DNA of 64,000 bases from Fibrobacter sp. (GTDB lineage Bacteria > Fibrobacterota > Fibrobacteria > Fibrobacterales > Fibrobacteraceae), in contig JAGCPZ010000058.1 in the NCBI GenBank assembly GCA_017965445.1, forward strand, positions 1 to 64,000, written 5' to 3'. Both the position numbers and the translations under genes were made by a program. This document shows, piece after piece, positions 11,432-56,814 of the stretch. The stretch's first letter is position 1, and every line of letters starts with the position of its first letter. The notes under the pieces are model-generated. The model was not told the origin of the DNA. It worked only from the letters and a program-made list of their open reading frames with translations, and did no database searches.

Positions 11432-12721
11432 CTATTCCAATATTTCGTCGTCAGTTTCGATAATCGGAGCTGGTTTCGATGTTGCAGGAGCGGCAGGAGC
11501 CGTCGTAGGTGTGGTGGAATTCACAGGAGCCGATTCCGTCACCGGCTTTTCCGCTGGCACCGCCGGAGTTTCAACCGGAGTCACGGGCGTTTCCTGGATG
11601 CTCTCTTCCACATATTCTTCGACAGGCAATTCTTCTGGGTCTTCCGTCACAAGTTTCCTTGATGCATCCGTCTTGTTCAGATGGCCTTCTTCCCTCGGTT
11701 TGTGGCCAAAGAGATACGGGCTAAAGCTAACGCTAACGCGGTGCACCGGCGAGAACACCGGATGCGATTCAAACGCGTAATCCACCACGAGGAAGTTCAT
11801 AATCGTTAGACCGGCACCCGCCGTCACACTTTTGAACGTCGTGAAACTGCTGAGACCAACCCGCAACTTGAGACCAAAGTCAAACGCGAACTCGACACCA
11901 CCGCGGCCGCCAGAAAGCCAGTCCAGCGGATCTTCCCAAATGCGTTCGCCACCGTGCGTATCTTCATCGAAGTCCAAATCCCTGGAATCGTGATGGAAAA
12001 ATCCCGCACTCTGCCAGTAGAAATTGAACTTGCCGTAGAGGTACGCCACAGGCAGTCCATAGCTCAACGCCACGTAAAACTCGGGAGCGGAATATTCAAA
12101 CTCGCCGGATTCCCAGGATGCAGCCGACGAAGTCCAGCCCTTCAAGAGTCCCGACACGTAAAAGTCGTCCATTATCTGGTAACGCGCACTTGCGTCACCA
12201 CGGAATCCCCAGCCGCTCTGGTCCATGTCGCGGTACAGCACATGGAAAGCAAGTCCCAAGTCCAAGCGGTCCATGATGCGGCGTCCCCACGATACGGAGA
12301 ACACCCAGTCCGCAATAGAGAGCGTGTTGTAGTCCGAACCCTCAGGCAACGGTTCACCTTCCCTAATGTAAGGGATGTCATCGGCACCGAACCTAGAAAA
12401 AGAAACACCTAGTCCCTGATTCTGTGAGAGCGGAATCACCATCGAAGCGTAATCGTACTTGGTATCTTCGTAATACGCGGTATGCGAGAACGACGCCCAC
12501 ATGTACTTCGCCTGCGAAAGCTGGTACGCATTGGTCATGAGTCCAAGATAATCGCCCTCGACAGCCAGAGTCGCAGAACCCAAGGCCGCAGAGCGTGCAC
12601 CCGGTTCAATATCAAGAGTTGCATTCGCGCCTACAACGCGGTCGGCAGCATAAGCCGCAGACGCAAGCGCACAGGCGTAAAAAACAGTCCGTAGAGTATA
12701 AAAATTTTTCAAAAAAGACAT
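11432..12721 (-). CDS. Outer-membrane protein, PorV/PorQ-like (type IX secretion type)
   Basis: After a signal peptide (start at 12721, MSFLKNFYTLR… to 'AYAADRV') comes 'GARSAALGSATLAVEGDYLGLMTNAYQLSQ', the characteristic opening of the PorV/PorQ-like outer-membrane barrel family, where strongly conserved Asn and Pro usually follow. The remaining 250 residues alternate aromatic and glycine residues as in a beta-barrel. The C-terminal 90 residues are a Pro/Thr/Glu-rich tail ending 'IIETDDEILE', probably outside the barrel. PorV-type proteins act in type IX secretion, which fits the CTD-like tail of the xylanase-like protein at 26373. A longer in-frame start gives no signal peptide. It diverges from the recombinase gene across 50 bp. 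Confidence 0.7.
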   Translation of the reverse strand: MSFLKNFYTLRTVFYACALASAAYAADRVVGANATLDIEPGARSAALGSATLAVEGDYLGLMTNAYQLSQAKYMWASFSHTAYYEDTKYDYASMVIPLSQNQGLGVSFSRFGADDIPYIREGEPLPEGSDYNTLSIADWVFSVSWGRRIMDRLDLGLAFHVLYRDMDQSGWGFRGDASARYQIMDDFYVSGLLKGWTSSAASWESGEFEYSAPEFYVALSYGLPVAYLYGKFNFYWQSAGFFHHDSRDLDFDEDTHGGERIWEDPLDWLSGGRGGVEFAFDFGLKLRVGLSSFTTFKSVTAGAGLTIMNFLVVDYAFESHPVFSPVHRVSVSFSPYLFGHKPREEGHLNKTDASRKLVTEDPEELPVEEYVEESIQETPVTPVETPAVPAEKPVTESAPVNSTTPTTAPAAPATSKPAPIIETDDEILE

Positions 12722-47542: not shown

Positions 47543-48349
47543 TCAGGAATGGAGCAGAGTCTCGTTCATGCTGCCGGTTCGGTAGCCCTGCAGGTCCAGC
47601 GACACGTACGCAAACCCGATGTTCTTGAAAGTCGCGAAAATCTGTTCGCGATTTTTTAGTACCGTATCGAAATTTTCGGGCAGCACCTCGATGCGAGCGA
47701 CGTTTTCGCCGTGGATGCGCACCCGCAGTTGCTTTATTCCCAATGTCCGCAAGAATTCTTCGCCTTTTTCTACCATACGGAGTTTCTGTTCCGTGATGGT
47801 TTCGCCATATACAAAACGGCTGGAAAGGCATGCGAACGAGGGCTTTTCGGCGGTCGGCAAGTTCAACTGCCTGGAAAGTTCCCGGATATTCGCCTTTGAA
47901 AACCCGCAGTCCCGCAGGGGGCTCCTGATTCCCAGTTCGGCGATGGCGCGGTGGCCCGGCCTGTAATCGCGATTGTCGTCGGTGTTGGAGCCTTCGCAGA
48001 TGTAGCGGAGCGAAAGCTCGTCGGCGACTTGCCCGATTAGGCCGAATACGGATTTCTTGCAGAGGTAGCAGCGGTCCTTGGGATTCTGCGCGAAGCCTTC
48101 GATTGAAAGTTCGTCGTGTTCGCGGACAACGTGGGCGATGTTTTCGCGGGCGCAAAAATCCTCGGATTCCCGCAGTTCCCTTTCCGGGAAGGATCTCTGC
48201 CGTACGGTCACGGCAACGGCGCGGTCGCCCAGCACATCGTGGGCGACTTTCAGCAGGAACGTGGAATCCACACCGCCAGAGAAAGCCACAGCGACGCTTT
48301 CCAGATTCTGCAGGTATGTTTTAAGCCGCTCTAGTTTTTCCTGAAGCAT
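47543..48349 (-). CDS. larE: ATP-dependent sacrificial sulfur transferase LarE
   Basis: LarE has a PP-loop (SGGVDS at about 24-29), the 'CYLCK' pair, 'YICEGSNTDDNRDYRPG', 'SPLRDCGFSK' and 'KPSFACLSSRFVYGETIT', the last with the cysteine that donates sulfur in Lar biosynthesis. It adds sulfur to the pyridine precursor of the nickel-pincer nucleotide. The ATG at 48349 overlaps the stop of the upstream aldo-keto reductase gene (TAATG). It is the last lar gene of the operon. Confidence 0.92.
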   Translation of the reverse strand: MLQEKLERLKTYLQNLESVAVAFSGGVDSTFLLKVAHDVLGDRAVAVTVRQRSFPERELRESEDFCARENIAHVVREHDELSIEGFAQNPKDRCYLCKKSVFGLIGQVADELSLRYICEGSNTDDNRDYRPGHRAIAELGIRSPLRDCGFSKANIRELSRQLNLPTAEKPSFACLSSRFVYGETITEQKLRMVEKGEEFLRTLGIKQLRVRIHGENVARIEVLPENFDTVLKNREQIFATFKNIGFAYVSLDLQGYRTGSMNETLLHS

Positions 48350-49776
48350 TAGCCACCGACCCGCTTCAAACTTTCGACATACGCGTCTATCTTGCGCAGT
48401 TCTTCGGGGATGTTCAGCCCCTGCGGGCACTTGGGACTGCACTGGTTGCAACCGGTGCAGTGGTTCGCCTGTCGCAGTTTCGGCACGCTTCTGTCGTAGC
48501 CTACCAGGAATTCCTTGCGGGCCTTGCGATAGTTTTCGTCATGGACGCCCGATGCGATACGGCCCTCGTTTACGCACTTGTTGTAGTGCACGAATATTCC
48601 CGGGATGTCGATGCCGTAGGGGCAGGGCATGCAGTACTTGCAATCGTTGCAGTTTACCGTGGGGTATTGCATCATCAGGTCCGCCGTGTCGAACAGGAAC
48701 TTGAGTTCTTCGTCGTTCAGGGGTTTTAACGGCGAATAGGTGCAGAGGTTATCCTGCAGGTGTTCCATGTAGGTCATGCCCGAAAGCACCGAGAGCACCT
48801 TGGGGTATGTTCCCGCGAATCGGAAAGCCCAGCTCGCCACGCTCGCTTCGGGGGCGCGCTGCTTGAGGCGTGCCACCACGTGGTCGTGGACGTTCGAGAG
48901 ACGCCCTCCCAGCAAGGGTTCCATGATGACTGAGGGAATATTGCGTTTCGCCAGTTCGTCGTAAAGGTATTCCGCGTTCACGTTGGCTGTCCAGCCCTTG
49001 TTTTCGGCGGCGTGTTTCCAGTCTAGGTAGTTCAGCTGAATTTGTACAAAATCCCAGTGGATTTCGTTGTGGAGACTGAGCAGGTAATCGAATACTTCCA
49101 CCTTGCCGTGGAACGAGAATCCGAGATTGCGGATGCGTCCTGCTTCGCGTTCCTTTTTCAGGAACTCGATGAGTCCGCAGTCGAAAAAGCGCTGCTTCAA
49201 AAAGGGAATGCCCGTGTCGCCGCCTACGTTGTGCATCAGGTAATAGTCGATGTAGTCCGTCTTCAGTTTTTTCATGGAGGTGCGGTACATTTCTACCGAG
49301 GCGTTGTAGAGTTCCTTACCCGTAAGGCCCGAGAGCGCCATCCTGTGGTTGCTCATCTTGGTGGCAATGTAGTAGCTGCTTCGCGGGTGGCGGCTGAGAG
49401 CGATGCCGGTAGCGTCTTCGGATTTGCCCTTCATGTAGGGTGGAGCCGTGTCAAAGTAGTTCACGCCGTGGGCAAGTGCGTAATCCACGAGTTTGTTCAC
49501 CATTTCCTGGTCGATTTCGCCCTCGTCGTTTGTGGGCAGGCGCATCATGCCGTAACCGAGTATTGATACCTTGTCGCCCTTTTCGGTCGTGCGGTAGGTC
49601 ATGGGGCCCGTGGGTTCCATGTTCGGCTTGGGGGCAGAGGCGGCGTCCTTCTCGTTTGCGAAAAAATTGCAGCCCTGTAGCAGGGTGGAACCCGCGAGTC
49701 CAGCGCCCAGCGTGCCGACTCCAGCCAGCTTGAGAAATTCGCGACGGTTGATTCCGTTGTTTTTTTCTTCGGCCAT
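48349..49776 (-). CDS. Tat-signal aldo-keto reductase with two [4Fe-4S] motifs, predicted lipoprotein
   Basis: The N-terminus 'GINRREFLKLAGVGTLGAG' is a twin-arginine motif (Asn for the usual Ser/Thr), followed by the lipobox 'LLQGC' at Cys36. An aldo-keto reductase barrel follows ('VNYFDTAPPYMKGKSEDATGIALS', 'DYIDYYLMHNVGG', 'GRIRNLGFSFHGKVEVFDYLL'), then Cys-rich segments 'CNDCKYCMPCPYGIDIPG' and 'CTGCNQCSPKCPQGLNIPEE'. A periplasmic location would deprive it of NADPH, so electrons may come through its clusters from the polyferredoxin encoded 12 bp upstream. Substrate unknown. The lipid anchor is inferred. Confidence 0.85.
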   Translation of the reverse strand: MAEEKNNGINRREFLKLAGVGTLGAGLAGSTLLQGCNFFANEKDAASAPKPNMEPTGPMTYRTTEKGDKVSILGYGMMRLPTNDEGEIDQEMVNKLVDYALAHGVNYFDTAPPYMKGKSEDATGIALSRHPRSSYYIATKMSNHRMALSGLTGKELYNASVEMYRTSMKKLKTDYIDYYLMHNVGGDTGIPFLKQRFFDCGLIEFLKKEREAGRIRNLGFSFHGKVEVFDYLLSLHNEIHWDFVQIQLNYLDWKHAAENKGWTANVNAEYLYDELAKRNIPSVIMEPLLGGRLSNVHDHVVARLKQRAPEASVASWAFRFAGTYPKVLSVLSGMTYMEHLQDNLCTYSPLKPLNDEELKFLFDTADLMMQYPTVNCNDCKYCMPCPYGIDIPGIFVHYNKCVNEGRIASGVHDENYRKARKEFLVGYDRSVPKLRQANHCTGCNQCSPKCPQGLNIPEELRKIDAYVESLKRVGG

Positions 49777-49788
49777 AAAAATCTCCTG

Positions 49789-51297
49789 TTACACCTTGCG
49801 GTGCATTTCGTGGCCTTCCACGTAAATCGCGCTTACGGGGCGGGCGGGGCAAAGGTTTTCGCAGGCGCCGCATCCGATGCAGCGTTCCGTGTTCACTACG
49901 GGAATCTTGCGGGAATTCGGATCGTCAGGATCCTGGGCCACCATCTGGATGGCTCCCGTGGGGCAGTGCCTTGCGCAGTTGCCGCATTCCTGATGGTCCC
50001 TGTTCACGATGCACAGGTCGAATTGCCATACGGCGTGGCCTATCTGCGTGGAAGACTTGTCGGCGAGGGGAATTTCGCGGATGGCCCCAGCCGGGCAGAC
50101 GGTGGAACAGCGGTTGCATTCGGGGCGGCAGTAGCCCTTCTCGTAACTCATAAACGGCTTGAGGTCGCGGCCCGCAAAAAGCACGTTGTTCTCGCAGTTC
50201 GCGATGCAGAGCCCGCAGGCGGTGCAATGGCTTTGCAGGTTCGCGTAGCTCTGGGCACCCGGCGGTACGATTTTGCCGAAACGTTCCGGCGCGACCTTGT
50301 CTTGAATCGGGGCGAGTCCGCCTTCGCCCTCGTCTTCGAGATTCACCTTGGCGCTGTCCTGTGCGCGAACGCCCGCAATCGAGCCTGCGGCAAGGACGGT
50401 GGCTAGTCCCAGGAATTTGCGGCGGGAAGTATCGACCTGCGGGGCTGAAGTTTTTTCGTCGCGCTTGTGGCCCGGGATTACGGGTGTCAGGCGGAGAGCG
50501 CCCTTGTTGCAGTTGCCGATGCAATCCATGCAGACGACACAGCGGCTATAATCAAATGTCCCGGACTTGGAATCGATGCAGGAACTCTTGCACTTGCGTT
50601 CGCACATCCCGCAGTGAATGCACTTGGATGTATCGACGACCGGGCGGAAGATGGCGAAACGGGAGATGAGCCCCAAGAAAGTCCCCACGGGGCAAACCGT
50701 GTTACAGTAGGCGCGTCCCTTGAAAAACGCCACGGCACCGATAATCACGAAGGTGGCGATAGCGATGCCCAAGGCGATGCCGCCTTTCAGCAAGACGTCC
50801 ACCTCATAGAACATGTAGCTGTCGAGGCGTTCGGCCATATAGGCAAGACCGTTGTTCGCAAGCTTGTAAATCGGCGAAAGGATGTAGGTGGCGATGCGTC
50901 CGTAGGCGCTATAGGGAGCGATGAGCGCTGCCGCCGGGAACGATGTTGCAATTCCTACGACAAACAGTGCGAAAATCCCGTAGCGGGGAATGCGTTTTTC
51001 GTTACTGAACTTGAACTTGCCGCGCTTGCCTTTTTTACCGCGGTTCCCGAGCCAGGAAAAGATATCCTGGAACACTCCCAGCGGGCAAATGACCGAGCAG
51101 TAGAGACGCCCGCATAGGAGCGTAAGCACCACTACGAATAAAATAGCGGCCACGTTCAGCGCGAGCACGGCGGGCAGAAACTGCACCTTGGCGAGCACGC
51201 CGAAATATCCCTGAAGGACTCCCGTGAAATCCAAAAACAGGAGCGTCACCAGCGTAAAGCAGATGAGCGCGAGGGTAATCCTGATTTTTCTCAGCAT
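49789..51297 (-). CDS. Membrane polyferredoxin, NapH/NapG-like fusion with internal Tat motif
   Basis: The first 220 residues resemble NapH/CcoG-type membrane ferredoxins: transmembrane helices and the repeated 'CGRLYCSVICPLG' and 'CNTVCPVG' loops. Two [4Fe-4S] motifs follow (Cys226-236, 253-263). At 291-297 stands SRRKFLG, a twin-arginine motif, followed by a hydrophobic segment ending 'AGVRAQ'. Four further Cys clusters lie at 358-368, 390-401, 438-445 and 473-483. This looks like NapH fused to a NapG-like periplasmic ferredoxin, probably moving electrons from the quinone pool. It overlaps larC by seven bases. Confidence 0.82.
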   Translation of the reverse strand: MLRKIRITLALICFTLVTLLFLDFTGVLQGYFGVLAKVQFLPAVLALNVAAILFVVVLTLLCGRLYCSVICPLGVFQDIFSWLGNRGKKGKRGKFKFSNEKRIPRYGIFALFVVGIATSFPAAALIAPYSAYGRIATYILSPIYKLANNGLAYMAERLDSYMFYEVDVLLKGGIALGIAIATFVIIGAVAFFKGRAYCNTVCPVGTFLGLISRFAIFRPVVDTSKCIHCGMCERKCKSSCIDSKSGTFDYSRCVVCMDCIGNCNKGALRLTPVIPGHKRDEKTSAPQVDTSRRKFLGLATVLAAGSIAGVRAQDSAKVNLEDEGEGGLAPIQDKVAPERFGKIVPPGAQSYANLQSHCTACGLCIANCENNVLFAGRDLKPFMSYEKGYCRPECNRCSTVCPAGAIREIPLADKSSTQIGHAVWQFDLCIVNRDHQECGNCARHCPTGAIQMVAQDPDDPNSRKIPVVNTERCIGCGACENLCPARPVSAIYVEGHEMHRKV

Positions 51298-52619
51298 TTG
51301 TCCTCCCGGTGGAACTTGCGCATGACCAGGTCGTGCATGTCGCGGATGGAAGTTTTGGCTTTTTCGGCCAGGGCCTTTACGTCGTCGAATTCGGGCTTTA
51401 CCCGCACCACGTTCCCGGTCGAAGACTTTTTGACGCGTGCCTTGCCGTATTCGGTTTCCACCTCGAAGAATTCCCGGTCCATGCAGTTCCGCTGTACGGG
51501 AATGCGACGGAGCCCTACCGTGGAGGTGTGCGTGAATATGGCGGTCTCGATTTGCGAAAGATGTTCACCGTCGGCGATGGCACGCAGAAGCACGCCGGGG
51601 CGGTTCTTCTTCATGAAGCAGGGAATGTAATGCACGTCGCGAGCGCCCGCCTCGAAAAGCTTTTCCATGGCGTACCCCAGTTCTTCGGGAGTGGAGTCGT
51701 CGATGTTTGCTTCCAATGCGTAAACGCTACAATCCGCGGGGCCGGAACCCTTGCCGGATTCCTCCTCGATAATCTGTACCCGCAAAAAATTCGCCCGGCC
51801 AAAGTCCCGCGTACCAAGCCCGATGCCGGTTTTTAGAATCTTGTAACCCGCGGGGAGCTTGTCGCTTGTCCGCAGTGCAGCCACGATGCCGATGCCCGTG
51901 GGCGTAACCATCTCGCCAGCCGTTTCTGTCGGGCGGAGAGCGATGCCGGCCGATTCCGCGATGTTCACCACCGCAGGCACGGGGACGGGCAACTTGCCGT
52001 GTTGCGTCTGCACGAATCCCGTACCTTCGTTCAGGCCCGTGACGATGCACCTGTCGATTCCCAGGTCATCTACCAGGACGGCTACGGACAAGATGTCGAT
52101 GATGGAATCGATTGCCCCGACCTCGTGAAAGTGAACTTCTTCGATTGCGACGCCGTGAGCCTTAGATTCGGCCTCGGCGATGATGCGGAAAATTTTCTTT
52201 GCGGTTTCAAGGGCACGAGGCGAAATTGCACCATTGTTTGCAGGGGATGCCGAAGTGCCTGCCGCACGGTCCAAAATCTCGTAAACCTCGGACAAATGGC
52301 GATGCTCATGATGATGGTGATGATGACCTTCATGACATTCTCTCGTCTCTCCTCTCTCGTCTTTCGTCTCGTTATGCTCCACATAACCTTCCTCGTGAGA
52401 ATGCACGTGGTCTGCGTCATGGCCGTGAACATGTACCGAAAACGATAGCCCCGCAATGCTGTAGCTGTTCGCGCGCTCCACATGGACGTGGACGCCATCC
52501 AGGTTCAGGCAGGCGATGGCCGCATCCAGTTTGTCGCGGGAAGCTCCCAATTCCAGAAGGGCGGCAACCGTCATGTCGCCGCTGATACCGCAAGAACCGT
52601 CGAGATAGAGTGTTTTCAT
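51291..52619 (-). CDS. larC: Nickel insertion protein LarC with His-rich insert
   Basis: LarC is a single 442-residue reading frame: 'YLDGSCGISGDMTVAALLELG', 'EEVHFHEVGAIDSIIDI', 'TPTGIGIVAAL', and the C-terminal 'NIDDSTPEELGYAMEKLFEAGARDV', so the frameshift known between larC1 and larC2 in lactobacilli is absent. It inserts nickel into the cofactor. Residues about 50-105 hold a His-rich run ending 'HHHHHHEHRHLSEV', partly encoded by a GACGAGAG-type repeat (52354-52369). The repeat is in frame; His enrichment could aid nickel binding. It is in the operon between larB and the polyferredoxin gene. Confidence 0.92.
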   Translation of the reverse strand: MKTLYLDGSCGISGDMTVAALLELGASRDKLDAAIACLNLDGVHVHVERANSYSIAGLSFSVHVHGHDADHVHSHEEGYVEHNETKDERGETRECHEGHHHHHHEHRHLSEVYEILDRAAGTSASPANNGAISPRALETAKKIFRIIAEAESKAHGVAIEEVHFHEVGAIDSIIDILSVAVLVDDLGIDRCIVTGLNEGTGFVQTQHGKLPVPVPAVVNIAESAGIALRPTETAGEMVTPTGIGIVAALRTSDKLPAGYKILKTGIGLGTRDFGRANFLRVQIIEEESGKGSGPADCSVYALEANIDDSTPEELGYAMEKLFEAGARDVHYIPCFMKKNRPGVLLRAIADGEHLSQIETAIFTHTSTVGLRRIPVQRNCMDREFFEVETEYGKARVKKSSTGNVVRVKPEFDDVKALAEKAKTSIRDMHDLVMRKFHREDKC

Positions 52620-52717: not shown

Positions 52718-53440
52718 TTATTTTATTTGCAGCATTCGGAGTGCGGCGATGGCGGCGCCAAAGCCGTTGTCTATATTCACGACGGTCACGCCCTCGGCAC
52801 AGGAATTCAGCATGGTGAGGAGTGCGCTAATCCCGTCAAAGGATGTACCGTACCCGACCGACGTAGGCACGGCAATGACGGGCGATTTCACGAGGCCCGC
52901 GATGACTCCCGGCAGGGCGCCTTCCATACCGGCGACAGCGATAACGATTTTCGATTTGCGGATATCCCCAATTTTGGAAAGCAGGCGGTGCAGCCCCGCA
53001 ATTCCCACGTCGAAATGGCGGTTGACCTTCACGCCGTAAAATTCCAGCGTCTGCGCGGCTTCTTCTGCGACGGGCAGGTCGGCTGTTCCTGCGCAGCATA
53101 CGGCTACGGGCCCGAGGTTCACGGCCCGTTTGAGCTTGCCAGCGGAGCGCCCGCGTTTCTGCTTGGCGGGAGCGTCACCCAAAAGCGAGATGACCCGCGA
53201 AATACTGTCGTACCGAATTTGTTCACCCGCATCGGTGATGAACTTTGCCTGCTCGGCGCTGCATTTTGTCCCGAGCACGCGGCAACCCTTTTCCCGGAAC
53301 TTCCGCAAAATCCTGAGCAACTGTTCGGGCGTCTTGCCTGCGCAATAAACGGCCTCGCCGGTCCCGGTACGCGCTTCGCGGTCAGTATCGAGCTTCGCAA
53401 AGCCCAGGTCTTCGTATTTCTGCTTTTGCTTCGGGGTCAT
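52718..53440 (-). CDS. larB: Pyridinium-3,5-biscarboxylic acid mononucleotide synthase LarB
   Basis: LarB has an N-terminal helical part ('KLDTDREARTGTGEAVYCAGKT') and a PurE/AIRC-like C-terminal domain ('VAVCCAGTADLPVAEEAAQTLEFYG', 'HRLLSKIGDIRKSKIVIAVAGMEGALPGVIAGLV', 'PVIAVPTSVGYG'). It carboxylates and hydrolyses nicotinate adenine dinucleotide in the first step of nickel-pincer synthesis. It lies 53 bp after tatC. Confidence 0.92.
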   Translation of the reverse strand: MTPKQKQKYEDLGFAKLDTDREARTGTGEAVYCAGKTPEQLLRILRKFREKGCRVLGTKCSAEQAKFITDAGEQIRYDSISRVISLLGDAPAKQKRGRSAGKLKRAVNLGPVAVCCAGTADLPVAEEAAQTLEFYGVKVNRHFDVGIAGLHRLLSKIGDIRKSKIVIAVAGMEGALPGVIAGLVKSPVIAVPTSVGYGTSFDGISALLTMLNSCAEGVTVVNIDNGFGAAIAALRMLQIK

Positions 53441-53493: not shown

Positions 53494-54423
53494 TTAGTAA
53501 GGTTTCCACTTGTCAGCGTCTTTTTCCGTACCGACCTGGAACTTGGAAGATGGCGCAGCAAAATCGATTTCGTCGGTTGCGGGGGCTGGCGTTTCGGCAA
53601 CGGCATTCGTTGCATCTGTCTGCGCAGGGTCTGATTCCGGCGCGGTTGATGTTGAATCGTTCCGTACAAGGTTCGGGGCGTTTTCGGGATGGACCTCTTT
53701 TTGCGAGCGTCCCTTGTACCGCCTTGCCGCGAGCAGTCCTGCTTCAAAAAGCAGGTAGGTGGGCGTGCCAAGCATCAGCTGGCTCACGATATCGGGCGGA
53801 GTGAGAAGCGCCGCGAGCACGAGAATCGCGACCACCACGTAGGGGCGCTTGCTGCATACGGTTTCGTAGCTCACGATGCTCGCACGGATAAGCGCGTAGG
53901 TCACCAGCGGAAACTGGAACATGCAACCGAAGGCAAGGGAAAGCCAGAGCGCGAGTGTCACCAGGTTCGATACGCCAAAGACGGGCTGCAACGATGTACC
54001 CGCGAAACTCATGCCGAACTGCACGATTAGCGGGAAACACACAATCAGGCAGAACGCGACACCCGCGATGAACAGGAGCGATGTCAGGCAAACGATGGAA
54101 CGGATAAAGCGTTTCTCGTTATCGTATAGCGCGGGGAGCACGAACTGCCACATGTTCCAAGCGATAACGGGCGAACAGACGACAACGTCCAGGAGGGCCG
54201 CAATTTTCAATTGCAGCAGGAACACTTCCATGGGGGAAAAATAGTGGAGCGTGAGCCCGCCCTGCAATGCAATCTGTTCGCAAAAAAAGTCCAGCAGGTA
54301 GGGAGATGCGATAAACAGCGGAACGATGCCAATGCCAAGAGCGATAAACGAACGGATTAGCGCCCGCCGGAGCGCCTCCAGGTGCGAAATCAGCGTCGCC
54401 TCTTGATCCTGCTTGCTGGTCAT
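53494..54423 (-). CDS. tatC: Twin-arginine translocase subunit TatC, with C-terminal extension
   Basis: The first 225 residues contain six transmembrane helices and TatC markers ('LISHLEALRRALIRSFIALG', 'YFSPMEVFLLQLKIAALLDVV', 'NMWQFVLPALYDNEKRF', 'LLTPPDIVSQLML'). TatC binds the twin-arginine motif. The last about 75 residues are a Pro/Ala/Asp-rich soluble tail ('STAPESDPAQTDATNAVAETPAPATDE'), not usual in TatC. It lies between tatA and larB, in an operon that encodes three Tat substrates, so a dedicated translocase is plausible. Confidence 0.9.
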   Translation of the reverse strand: MTSKQDQEATLISHLEALRRALIRSFIALGIGIVPLFIASPYLLDFFCEQIALQGGLTLHYFSPMEVFLLQLKIAALLDVVVCSPVIAWNMWQFVLPALYDNEKRFIRSIVCLTSLLFIAGVAFCLIVCFPLIVQFGMSFAGTSLQPVFGVSNLVTLALWLSLAFGCMFQFPLVTYALIRASIVSYETVCSKRPYVVVAILVLAALLTPPDIVSQLMLGTPTYLLFEAGLLAARRYKGRSQKEVHPENAPNLVRNDSTSTAPESDPAQTDATNAVAETPAPATDEIDFAAPSSKFQVGTEKDADKWKPY

Positions 54424-54835: not shown

Positions 54836-55840
54836 TTACAGTTCAATGATTCGGTACTTGCGGTTGCCCATCTTCAGTTTTTCCATGGCGGTCAGCTGGT
54901 GCAGGCCCTCGCGGGTCTCGATGCGCTCCTTAAGGTCATGAAGTTCCTTAGGCGGGAGTTTATAAACCATATCCACGCTGGCCTGGTCCACCGCCAGAAT
55001 GTCGGTGGAAGCGAGAATCCCGATGTCGCGGCACTTGGGTTCTTCAGCGGCAACGCCCGCGCAGTCACAATCCACGGACATGCGGCGCAGCACGTTGATA
55101 AAGCAGATGTGTCCCTTGAAAAAGTCGCAGGTCGCCTTCGCGGAATCGGCCATGGTTTCCATGAACAGGGCCCCGGTCGTTCTCCAGCCGGCTTCGCCGC
55201 CCGCTTCCATCTTGGTGGGGCCACCCTTTACGTACTCGTGAATCATCTTTTTCCCAAGCTGTCCGCCCGCGCAACCGATGGCGATGTTCTTCATGGAACC
55301 GCCGAAACCGCCCATGGTGTGGCCCTTGAAATGGGTGAGCACAATCATCGAATCGTAGTTCTTGATGTGTGCGCCCATGGACATTTCCTTGAAAATCAGG
55401 CCGTCCTTTACGGGGAGCATCACTTCGCCTTCTTCATCCATGATATCTACGTCGCAGAAGGTCCAGCCGTTCACCTTCAAGGTTTCGCGGTGCTGTTCAG
55501 TGGTGTAGCGGGCGCCCTCGTACCAGGTGTTGGTCTCCACAATTTTCGAATCCGGGACCTGCGCCTGAAATTCCTTGACCCACTCGCGGGGCAAGATGTT
55601 CGGGCCGTGAGGTTCGCCGGTGTGCAGCTTGATGGCCACGCGACCGGTAATGCCCTCGTTGATTTTCTTGTACAACTTGATAAGGCCAGCGGCACTCAGG
55701 TCCTTGGTGAAATAGACGTTCGAGACATCCTTGCCGCTCTCTTTCTGTTCCATGGAACCTCCTTTTGCAAAGGCGGGAGTGAATACAGCAGAAGCGAGTG
55801 CTGCTACGCCTGCGGTTTTTAAAAAGTCTCTTCTATCCAT
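54836..55840 (-). CDS. Tat-exported DUF362 protein, candidate nickel-pincer enzyme
   Basis: The N-terminus MDRRDFLKTAGVAALASAVFT is a Tat signal, ending near 'AFAKGG'. The DUF362 core contains 'AIKLHTGEPHGPNIL', 'IVLTHFKGHTMGGFGGSMKN' and 'DCDCAGVAAEEPKCRDIGIL'. His174 and Lys184 are ten residues apart, and His201 follows 17 later; in LarA (from memory) His174, Lys184 and His200 hold the nickel-pincer cofactor and active site. DUF362 proteins are usually assigned to Fe-S or unknown roles. The co-located larBCE and tatAC genes make a cofactor-loaded, exported enzyme plausible, but this is inference. Confidence 0.8.
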   Translation of the reverse strand: MDRRDFLKTAGVAALASAVFTPAFAKGGSMEQKESGKDVSNVYFTKDLSAAGLIKLYKKINEGITGRVAIKLHTGEPHGPNILPREWVKEFQAQVPDSKIVETNTWYEGARYTTEQHRETLKVNGWTFCDVDIMDEEGEVMLPVKDGLIFKEMSMGAHIKNYDSMIVLTHFKGHTMGGFGGSMKNIAIGCAGGQLGKKMIHEYVKGGPTKMEAGGEAGWRTTGALFMETMADSAKATCDFFKGHICFINVLRRMSVDCDCAGVAAEEPKCRDIGILASTDILAVDQASVDMVYKLPPKELHDLKERIETREGLHQLTAMEKLKMGNRKYRIIEL

Positions 55841-55851
55841 AAGGTTAGTGG

Positions 55852-56169
55852 CTAGTGATTAGTGGTTTGAGGCAATCTACGCCATTTGCCTTTCGGGTCT
55901 TTCCAGAGAAGCACGCCAAGCCAGATGACAAGCCCGAGCGCCACCACGGAGAACCCGAGGAAAGAGTCGTTCAGCATGTCGGCTGCGGCGGGCGTGAAGT
56001 ATTCCGCCTTGACTTCCGCGTATTCGAACACGGCGTCGATAAACCACATGAGAGATGCTCCCCAGTAGAGGTAGCACAGCGTGGAGATTTTCATTTCGTC
56101 CTTTGCACCTCCCCTGTACCAGAACACGGTGGCGACGACTGCGGCAAAAACGGTAATGAGTAAAGTCAT
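55852..56169 (-). CDS. Small membrane protein
   Basis: The 105-residue protein has three hydrophobic helices ('TLLITVFAAVVATVFWY', 'CYLYWGASLMWFIDAVFEY' and 'GFSVVALGLVIWLGVLLW') and a short basic C-terminus. It lies 11 bp before the DUF362 gene and 9 bp after the next membrane gene. No family recognised. The position suggests a membrane partner of the exported redox proteins. Confidence 0.7.
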   Translation of the reverse strand: MTLLITVFAAVVATVFWYRGGAKDEMKISTLCYLYWGASLMWFIDAVFEYAEVKAEYFTPAAADMLNDSFLGFSVVALGLVIWLGVLLWKDPKGKWRRLPQTTNH

Positions 56170-56178
56170 GGAAACCTC

Positions 56179-56589
56179 CTACTTGTCCTGGACCTTTACG
56201 GTGGCGGGTTCTGCCGAAACCATCCGGCTACGTACAAATTGCACCAACGCCCAGGAAAGTGTGACGAACGCGGCCATGGATGTGCCCACTGTCGCCATCT
56301 CGTGATAAACCTCACTCAGGGCTTCCGGGTCGGTAGCCGCCGTGAGGAACGGGTAGAACGGCTGGATTTCGCCATGCCACAGGTGTTCGAAGGCAAGCAG
56401 GACAGAACCACCCCACAAAAGCTTGGAAAGAGACTTTAGCTTGACGTAGAAAGGTTGGTGAGCGTCGGCGGAAATGGCTGTTTCCAGGGCCTTGCCTTGG
56501 GCTTCGACCTTTTTACTGCGGTGCTCCAGCACGATGTTGACGATTGTAACGATGGCAGCTTCGGCTGCGGGGACCACAAAACAGGCCAT
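56179..56589 (-). CDS. Membrane protein, first gene of the lar-tat operon
   Basis: The 136-residue protein starts MACFVVPAAEAAIVTIVNIVLEHRS, preceded by AAAGGAG, a strong ribosome-binding site. Hydrophobic segments include 'LLWGGSVLLAFEHLWHG' and 'GTSMAAFVTLSWALVQFV'. It is the first of about ten genes read in the same direction. A promoter should lie in 56590-56760, but I cannot assign it. No family recognised. Confidence 0.7.
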   Translation of the reverse strand: MACFVVPAAEAAIVTIVNIVLEHRSKKVEAQGKALETAISADAHQPFYVKLKSLSKLLWGGSVLLAFEHLWHGEIQPFYPFLTAATDPEALSEVYHEMATVGTSMAAFVTLSWALVQFVRSRMVSAEPATVKVQDK

Positions 56590-56814
56590 AGGAACTCCTT
56601 TCGTATAATTTCTGTAAGAAATATAATACTTAGAGTCAATCCCAGGTACATTTTTTTTGAAAAAACAACATAGCAAACCATTTCCCAAACGAATCATATA
56701 AACTATGTATATTCCAAAACAGTACAAAACAAAAACAAGACTACCATTTTTCATTTAAATTAAAGAGCTTTTCTATAAAAAAAATCTATATGACACATCT
56801 TGACGACCTTCGCG

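Follow-up and report, generated by a model that had tools for sequence, protein, structure and literature searches.

The window, a 64,000-nucleotide stretch of contig JAGCPZ010000058.1 (positions 1 to 64,000) from the rumen bacterium Fibrobacter sp. (assembly GCA_017965445.1; denoted G000), encodes on its minus strand a protein of 334 amino acids plus stop (54836..55840) that belongs to the DUF362 family (PF04015, E 1.2e-38; 133.7 bits against a gathering score of 24, residues 68-290) and is a candidate apoenzyme for the nickel-pincer cofactor (NPN). Its nearest named relatives come from Fibrobacter. The protein starts with MDRRDFLK and carries a predicted twin-arginine signal peptide, MDRRDFLKTAGVAALASAVFTPAFAK (55763..55840, minus strand), which was identified from the sequence and by Pfam and TIGR twin-arginine models (TAT_signal E 4e-5, over the cut-off); residues 1-35 are of low confidence in the structural model. 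The next gene encodes the translocase subunit TatC (53494..54423; PF00902 E 5.5e-54, TIGR00945 over the cut-off), and it is followed, all on the minus strand, by the genes for LarB, the pyridinium carboxylase of NPN biosynthesis (52718..53440; NF033503, 266 bits with a cut-off of 175); LarC, the nickel insertion protein, with LarC1 and LarC2 in a single frame (51291..52619; PF01969 E 7e-127, TIGR00299 and NF052512 over the cut-off); a NapH/NapG-like membrane polyferredoxin with several 4Fe-4S domains (49789..51297; NapH/MauN and NapG models below the cut-off); an aldo/keto reductase with C-terminal 4Fe-4S domains and a twin-arginine signal (48349..49776; PF00248 E 5e-37 plus Fer4, TIGR01409 over the cut-off); and LarE, the ATP-dependent sacrificial sulfur transferase (47543..48349; TIGR00268, 324 bits with a cut-off of 150), for which the start was set at an internal ATG, the TIGR00268 match spanning residues 38-296 of the longest frame. 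What LarB, LarC and LarE do in NPN synthesis is known from the literature, and this genome encodes all three.

Directly upstream of the DUF362 gene is a gene for a small membrane protein of 105 aa (55852..56169, minus strand) and, beyond it, a 191-aa frame for another membrane protein (56179..56754, minus strand) that is kept at several Fibrobacter DUF362 loci; neither was assigned to a family. A relative of the 105-aa protein (133 bits) adjoins the Clostridia DUF362 genes in L188 (2775-3281).

The first-pass annotation had singled out three residues of the DUF362 protein for their spacing, and the computed positions (H170, K172, H174, K184, K197 and H201) bear it out: K184 lies 10 residues after H174, and H201 lies 17 residues after K184. 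The LarA residues named there for comparison, H174, K184 and H200, agree with the literature (PMC7583248), and the glycine/lysine pattern described as LarA-like is common to both proteins in the form G-F/Y-x-G-G-x-K. In a profile alignment, His174 (codon at 55319..55321, minus strand) pairs with the catalytic His174 of LarA, Lys184 (55289..55291, minus strand) with the Lys184 that forms the thioamide link to NPN in LarA, and His201 (55238..55240, minus strand) with His200, a nickel ligand in LarA, with a one-residue gap before the last pair. That the two proteins share the numbers 174 and 184 is fortuitous, since the DUF362 protein is counted with its signal peptide. The spacing alone is weak evidence, since 4.4% of shuffled versions of the DUF362 protein and 5 of the 189 open frames of at least 100 aa in the window contain H-x9-K-x15/16-H; it gains meaning from homology to LarA, that is, from the Lar_N match, the profile alignment and the invariance of the residues.

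The homology is remote. DUF362 (PF04015) and DUF2088/LarA are placed in one Pfam clan, and in work on LarA the former has so far served solely as a tree outgroup (PMC11770544). A comparison by hhalign of a DUF362 profile built from 49 relatives with the LarA profile gave an E value of 2.6e-4. On the window protein itself, Lar_N (PF09861) matches below threshold at residues 153-193 (E 0.081, 12.6 bits against 23.3), and the NCBIfam models LarAH5 (14 bits against 462) and LarAH10 give below-cut-off matches in the same region; a sequence search of the PDB yielded no close relatives, with the malate racemase Mar2 appearing only at E 0.69. With the AlphaFold2 model (pLDDT 87.3, pTM 0.85) as query, all 17 Foldseek matches in the PDB at E <= 0.001 are LarA-type structures, the best being 6c1w (E 4e-7), though the superpositions are loose (TM scores 0.35-0.44; rmsd mostly about 12 A), possibly an effect of domain orientation. 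The proposal of LarA-like function, which the first-pass annotation had made dependent on similarity of fold, thus stands in this respect. Judged from the common clan, the profile alignment and the Foldseek matches, the relationship of the DUF362 protein to LarA is real.

Two residues of LarA, K184 (NPN attachment) and H200 (Ni ligand), have aligned counterparts in K184 and H201. Equivalents of LarA D72, R75 and H108, in contrast, are absent from the profile alignment, where their places are taken by L72, G75 (within KLHTGE) and Gly109, the latter with Tyr107 and Arg111 nearby; in LarA, D72 and H108 are catalytic and R75 binds NPN. Of the two catalytic histidines of LarA, H108 and H174, the DUF362 protein keeps only H174. 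By sequence tests, the window protein is therefore a member of DUF362 that falls outside the LarA family on both the curated cut-offs and the active-site residues, and it may work in a LarA-like mode.

The triad is invariant in 86 of the 87 relatives compared, the sole exception being a gap. N185 and K197 are equally unvaried save for one gap, whereas H170 shows a single variant; the subfamily also conserves KLHTGE and, nearly without exception, C-D-C at residues 258-260. Among six diverse ordinary DUF362 proteins, H-x9-K-x14-H is invariant. As far as these alignments go, the His/Lys/His triad is a trait of the clan and does not single out the window protein. The spacing was accordingly rejected as proof by itself, given its frequency in shuffled sequences and its presence in ordinary DUF362 proteins.

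We surveyed 41 genomes around that of the window, 25 of them from the same genus, G000 included. NPN is not known to be used by any enzyme family other than LarA, and a profile search detected Lar_N in none of these 25 genomes. True LarB is encoded in five (G000, G006, G008, G009 and G020), and DUF362 in the same five and in G012, so that both genes are present in 5 genomes, DUF362 alone in 1, and neither in 19. An ordinary LarA could lie in the unsequenced part of G000, which is 72% complete, with the DUF362 protein incidental to NPN; however, Lar_N is missing from all 24 other genomes of the genus, many of which are 94-100% complete, including the LarB-bearing congeners (96-100% complete, G006 with 8% contamination), and we regard a hidden LarA as very improbable. 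In a related genus (G032-G037, loci L171-L176), LarB is encoded with no DUF362, LarA or other queried lar gene adjoining.

Across the 50 genomes that encode the subfamily, LarB was found in 35, LarE over the cut-off in the same 35, and Lar_N over the cut-off in 22; 15 of the 50 combine LarB and LarE with a lack of LarA. Among LarA-less Negativicutes, drawn from 180 genomes, LarB is present in 9 of 9 genomes with the subfamily vs 5 of 33 without it (p 4.5e-6, a value that, like the next one, ignores shared ancestry). In Clostridia (118 genomes), the association of DUF362 with LarB is weak (p 0.014): LarA-less genomes include 12 with a DUF362 match and no LarB and 13 with the reverse. The Clostridia, only weakly positive, were not counted as independently replicating the strong co-occurrence in Negativicutes.

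A scan of a genome collection yielded 80 relatives, 77 of them outside Fibrobacter, and the loci of these 77 were retrieved regardless of the presence of lar genes. Near DUF362, larB was found at 5 of the loci, larC at 5 and larE at 4, whereas six genes of the window used as controls gave one occurrence of a single gene at these loci and none of the other five. DUF362 relatives belong to larBCE clusters in Fibrobacter, Alpha- and Betaproteobacteria, Desulfuromonadia, Clostridia and Negativicutes. Carriers of such a protein include the culturable anaerobe Mitsuokella jalaludinii. The alphaproteobacterial metagenome-assembled locus L142 encodes on one strand DUF362, an aldo/keto reductase, flavodoxin, LarB, LarC, LarE, a membrane protein, a polyferredoxin and TatC, a set close to that of the window. 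The gene order is DUF362-LarC-LarE-LarB in L071/L190, from a genome with no Lar_N match; in L082/L191, DUF362 is flanked by LarE and LarC, with LarB also in the cluster; in L187, a divergent Clostridia DUF362 precedes LarB-LarC-LarE; and further clusters were found in L135, L181 and L182. Three Negativicutes loci (L177-L179) share the order DUF362-TatC-LarE-LarB-LarC-CbiM (with PDGLE)-CbiQ-ABC ATPase, in which the genes directly after larC (1678-3437 in L177) encode, by Pfam match, a nickel/cobalt importer; LarB of L179 was placed by coordinates. These loci were fetched on coordinates that suggested linkage, and hence illustrate an arrangement, not its frequency. The genome of one of these operons (G250) gave no match to Lar_N. 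On the DUF362 tree, linked and unlinked copies are interleaved, and at least 8 changes of the linked state are required.

Additional DUF362 genes also occur: the larBCE cluster of L182 includes a polyferredoxin and a second, ordinary DUF362 with a twin-arginine-like start (11537-12511), and in one Fibrobacter genome a tandem pair of subfamily genes precedes TatC-LarB-LarC (L166, G009:C17, and L006).

An aldo/keto reductase is encoded along with DUF362 in the window as well as in L142, L180, L182, L183 and L191, and this raises the question of whether the DUF362 protein is instead a carrier of NPN or nickel, a storage protein or a loading chaperone, and catalysis is left to the exported aldo/keto reductase or to a different protein. 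The missing counterparts of LarA H108 and D72 would fit such a role. However, no 4Fe-4S aldo/keto reductase was found beside the larBCE-linked DUF362 of L177-L179, L181 and L187, and the DUF362 protein combines a predicted fold that loosely matches LarA with a conserved equivalent of H174; a carrier or chaperone role thus appears improbable.

Evidence in the other direction comes from copies in genomes that lack larBCE. Members of an Elusimicrobia clade (L084, L086, L091-L094) have lipoprotein or Sec-type signals and the full triad, and neither larB nor larE was detected in seven genomes of this clade with the Sec lipoprotein versions. The triad is likewise unchanged in reduced Alphaproteobacteria with no LarB or LarE, and L101 (Rickettsiales), a copy with a lipoprotein or Sec-type signal from a genome with no LarB or LarE, has all three residues too. 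Within Fibrobacter, G012 (L165, G012:C17) has retained DUF362 and TatC and lost larBCE, the gap being a near-clean deletion; a related contig (L067) shows the same loss, with about 3.2 kb of other DNA at that place. The G012 gene is strongly constrained (dN/dS 0.009 relative to a LarB-bearing relative). Because the triad is invariant both in relatives with no larB or larE and in the Fibrobacter lineage that lost larBCE, it is not diagnostic of NPN. Either these copies have another function, or the loss is recent, or the triad holds something other than NPN.

The last possibility can be extended to the whole family: the site would serve a ligand other than NPN, such as another metal or a nucleotide-like cofactor, everywhere, and larBCE would be a frequent companion in redox islands, making NPN for another protein. 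The triad of the Sec-exported Elusimicrobia proteins, of ordinary DUF362 proteins and of G012 after its loss of larBCE speaks for this reading. Against it, no other protein of the LarA clan was found in the genome of the window, and it is DUF362 that keeps recurring beside larBCE across unrelated phyla, in three cases together with a nickel/cobalt transporter. We consider a non-NPN site throughout the family unlikely, if less so than a carrier role.

A mixed family, in which only the copies in larBCE genomes hold NPN, is a narrower form of the NPN-apoenzyme reading and compatible with it; the Elusimicrobia-like copies would have lost NPN, kept another cofactor or taken up the NPN of neighbours, and the ancestral site would have accepted a broader class of ligands. 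Such a family would account for the interleaving of linked and unlinked copies and for the export signals, which, scored by eye, comprise 26 Tat and 2 Sec in LarB-positive genomes vs 4 Tat and 8 Sec in LarB-negative ones. These raw counts are suggestive; however, two LarB-positive genomes have Sec versions, and after correction for relatedness the correlation of Sec or lipoprotein export with the absence of larB is not significant (2 independent pairs), so it was set aside. We hold the mixed family to be a serious possibility that falls somewhat short of being probable.

Taken as a claim about the window genome, the first-pass annotation's choice of the DUF362 protein as the best NPN-user candidate is supported, mainly on account of context: LarA was detected neither in the genome nor in the genus, and the larBCE clusters recur in unrelated bacteria, three with a nickel/cobalt transporter. 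The spacing argument offered for it turned out weaker than claimed: the spacing is present and backed by homology, yet it is general in DUF362 and is kept where larB and larE are missing. Gene context is the stronger evidence of the two. On balance, we consider it fairly probable that the NPN made by the co-encoded LarB, LarC and LarE has the window protein as its apoenzyme. We infer that LarB, LarE and LarC would make NPN in the cytoplasm, where it would also be loaded onto the DUF362 protein. Lys184 is the probable attachment site, while His201 would coordinate the nickel and His174 would serve as acid/base. The folded holoprotein would then be exported by the Tat system and act outside the cytoplasm by hydride transfer, with a small substrate of the hydroxy-acid type. 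The Tat system transports folded, cofactor-loaded proteins, and the TatC genes within several of the operons fit this scheme. The ferredoxin-type neighbours suggest a redox role: because the polyferredoxin and the exported 4Fe-4S aldo/keto reductase are encoded nearby, the reaction might bring about a net redox change instead of plain racemisation.

Compared with LarA and its homologues (DUF2088/Lar_N, PF09861), the DUF362 protein shares the clan (CL0471), Foldseek matches of its predicted fold to LarA-type structures, equivalents of H174, K184 and H200, the G-F/Y-x-G-G-x-K motif, and clustering with larB, larC, larE and, at some loci, a nickel/cobalt transporter. It differs in belonging to PF04015, being shorter, not conserving D72, R75 and H108, carrying a Tat signal and having electron-carrier neighbours, and is to be seen as a candidate NPN binder. 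Another parallel is offered by the NPN-binding DUF2088 proteins that have the LarA fold and a single catalytic histidine; however, these lack the H174 equivalent (Asn in its place), whereas in the window protein H174 is retained and H108 is the missing one.

Some 15% of the genomes surveyed contain larB, larC and larE and no larA, LarBCE of the cyanobacterium Synechocystis makes NPN, and an additional NPN user with a different fold has been expected (PMC11796402). If DUF362 is such a user, it would be a distant relative of LarA rather than the different fold that the field anticipates. Beyond PMC11770544, with DUF362 as outgroup, the literature searched yielded nothing that links DUF362 with the nickel-pincer cofactor, and nothing that links this cofactor with the twin-arginine pathway or reports a Tat-exported NPN enzyme. 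We tentatively suggest that the entire LarA/DUF362 clan could be an NPN superfamily. DUF362 proteins would then supply the NPN users in genomes that have larBCE and lack larA (some 15%, among them cyanobacteria), and the window branch would be the first NPN enzyme to be exported, perhaps coupled to electron carriers of the membrane. The control genome of Synechococcus elongatus, with DUF362 present and no Lar_N, and the NPN synthesis by LarBCE of Synechocystis lend thin support to this broader suggestion. A Tat-exported NPN enzyme would place a hydride-transfer cofactor outside the cytoplasm, and the operons described here supply a named candidate that is well conserved, can be expressed and offers a specific residue for attachment.

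Ordinary DUF362 proteins and an Fe-S type of the family (L026) share with the window protein the family itself, the invariant H-x9-K and the downstream His. In contrast to the window subfamily, the few examined showed no link to larBCE, except for the co-encoded copy in L182. L026 contains 4Fe-4S motifs, whereas members of the window subfamily mostly have a Tat signal and the invariant C-D-C with no ferredoxin domain. The longer D-C-D-C at residues 257-260, near-invariant in the subfamily, is present also in L026.
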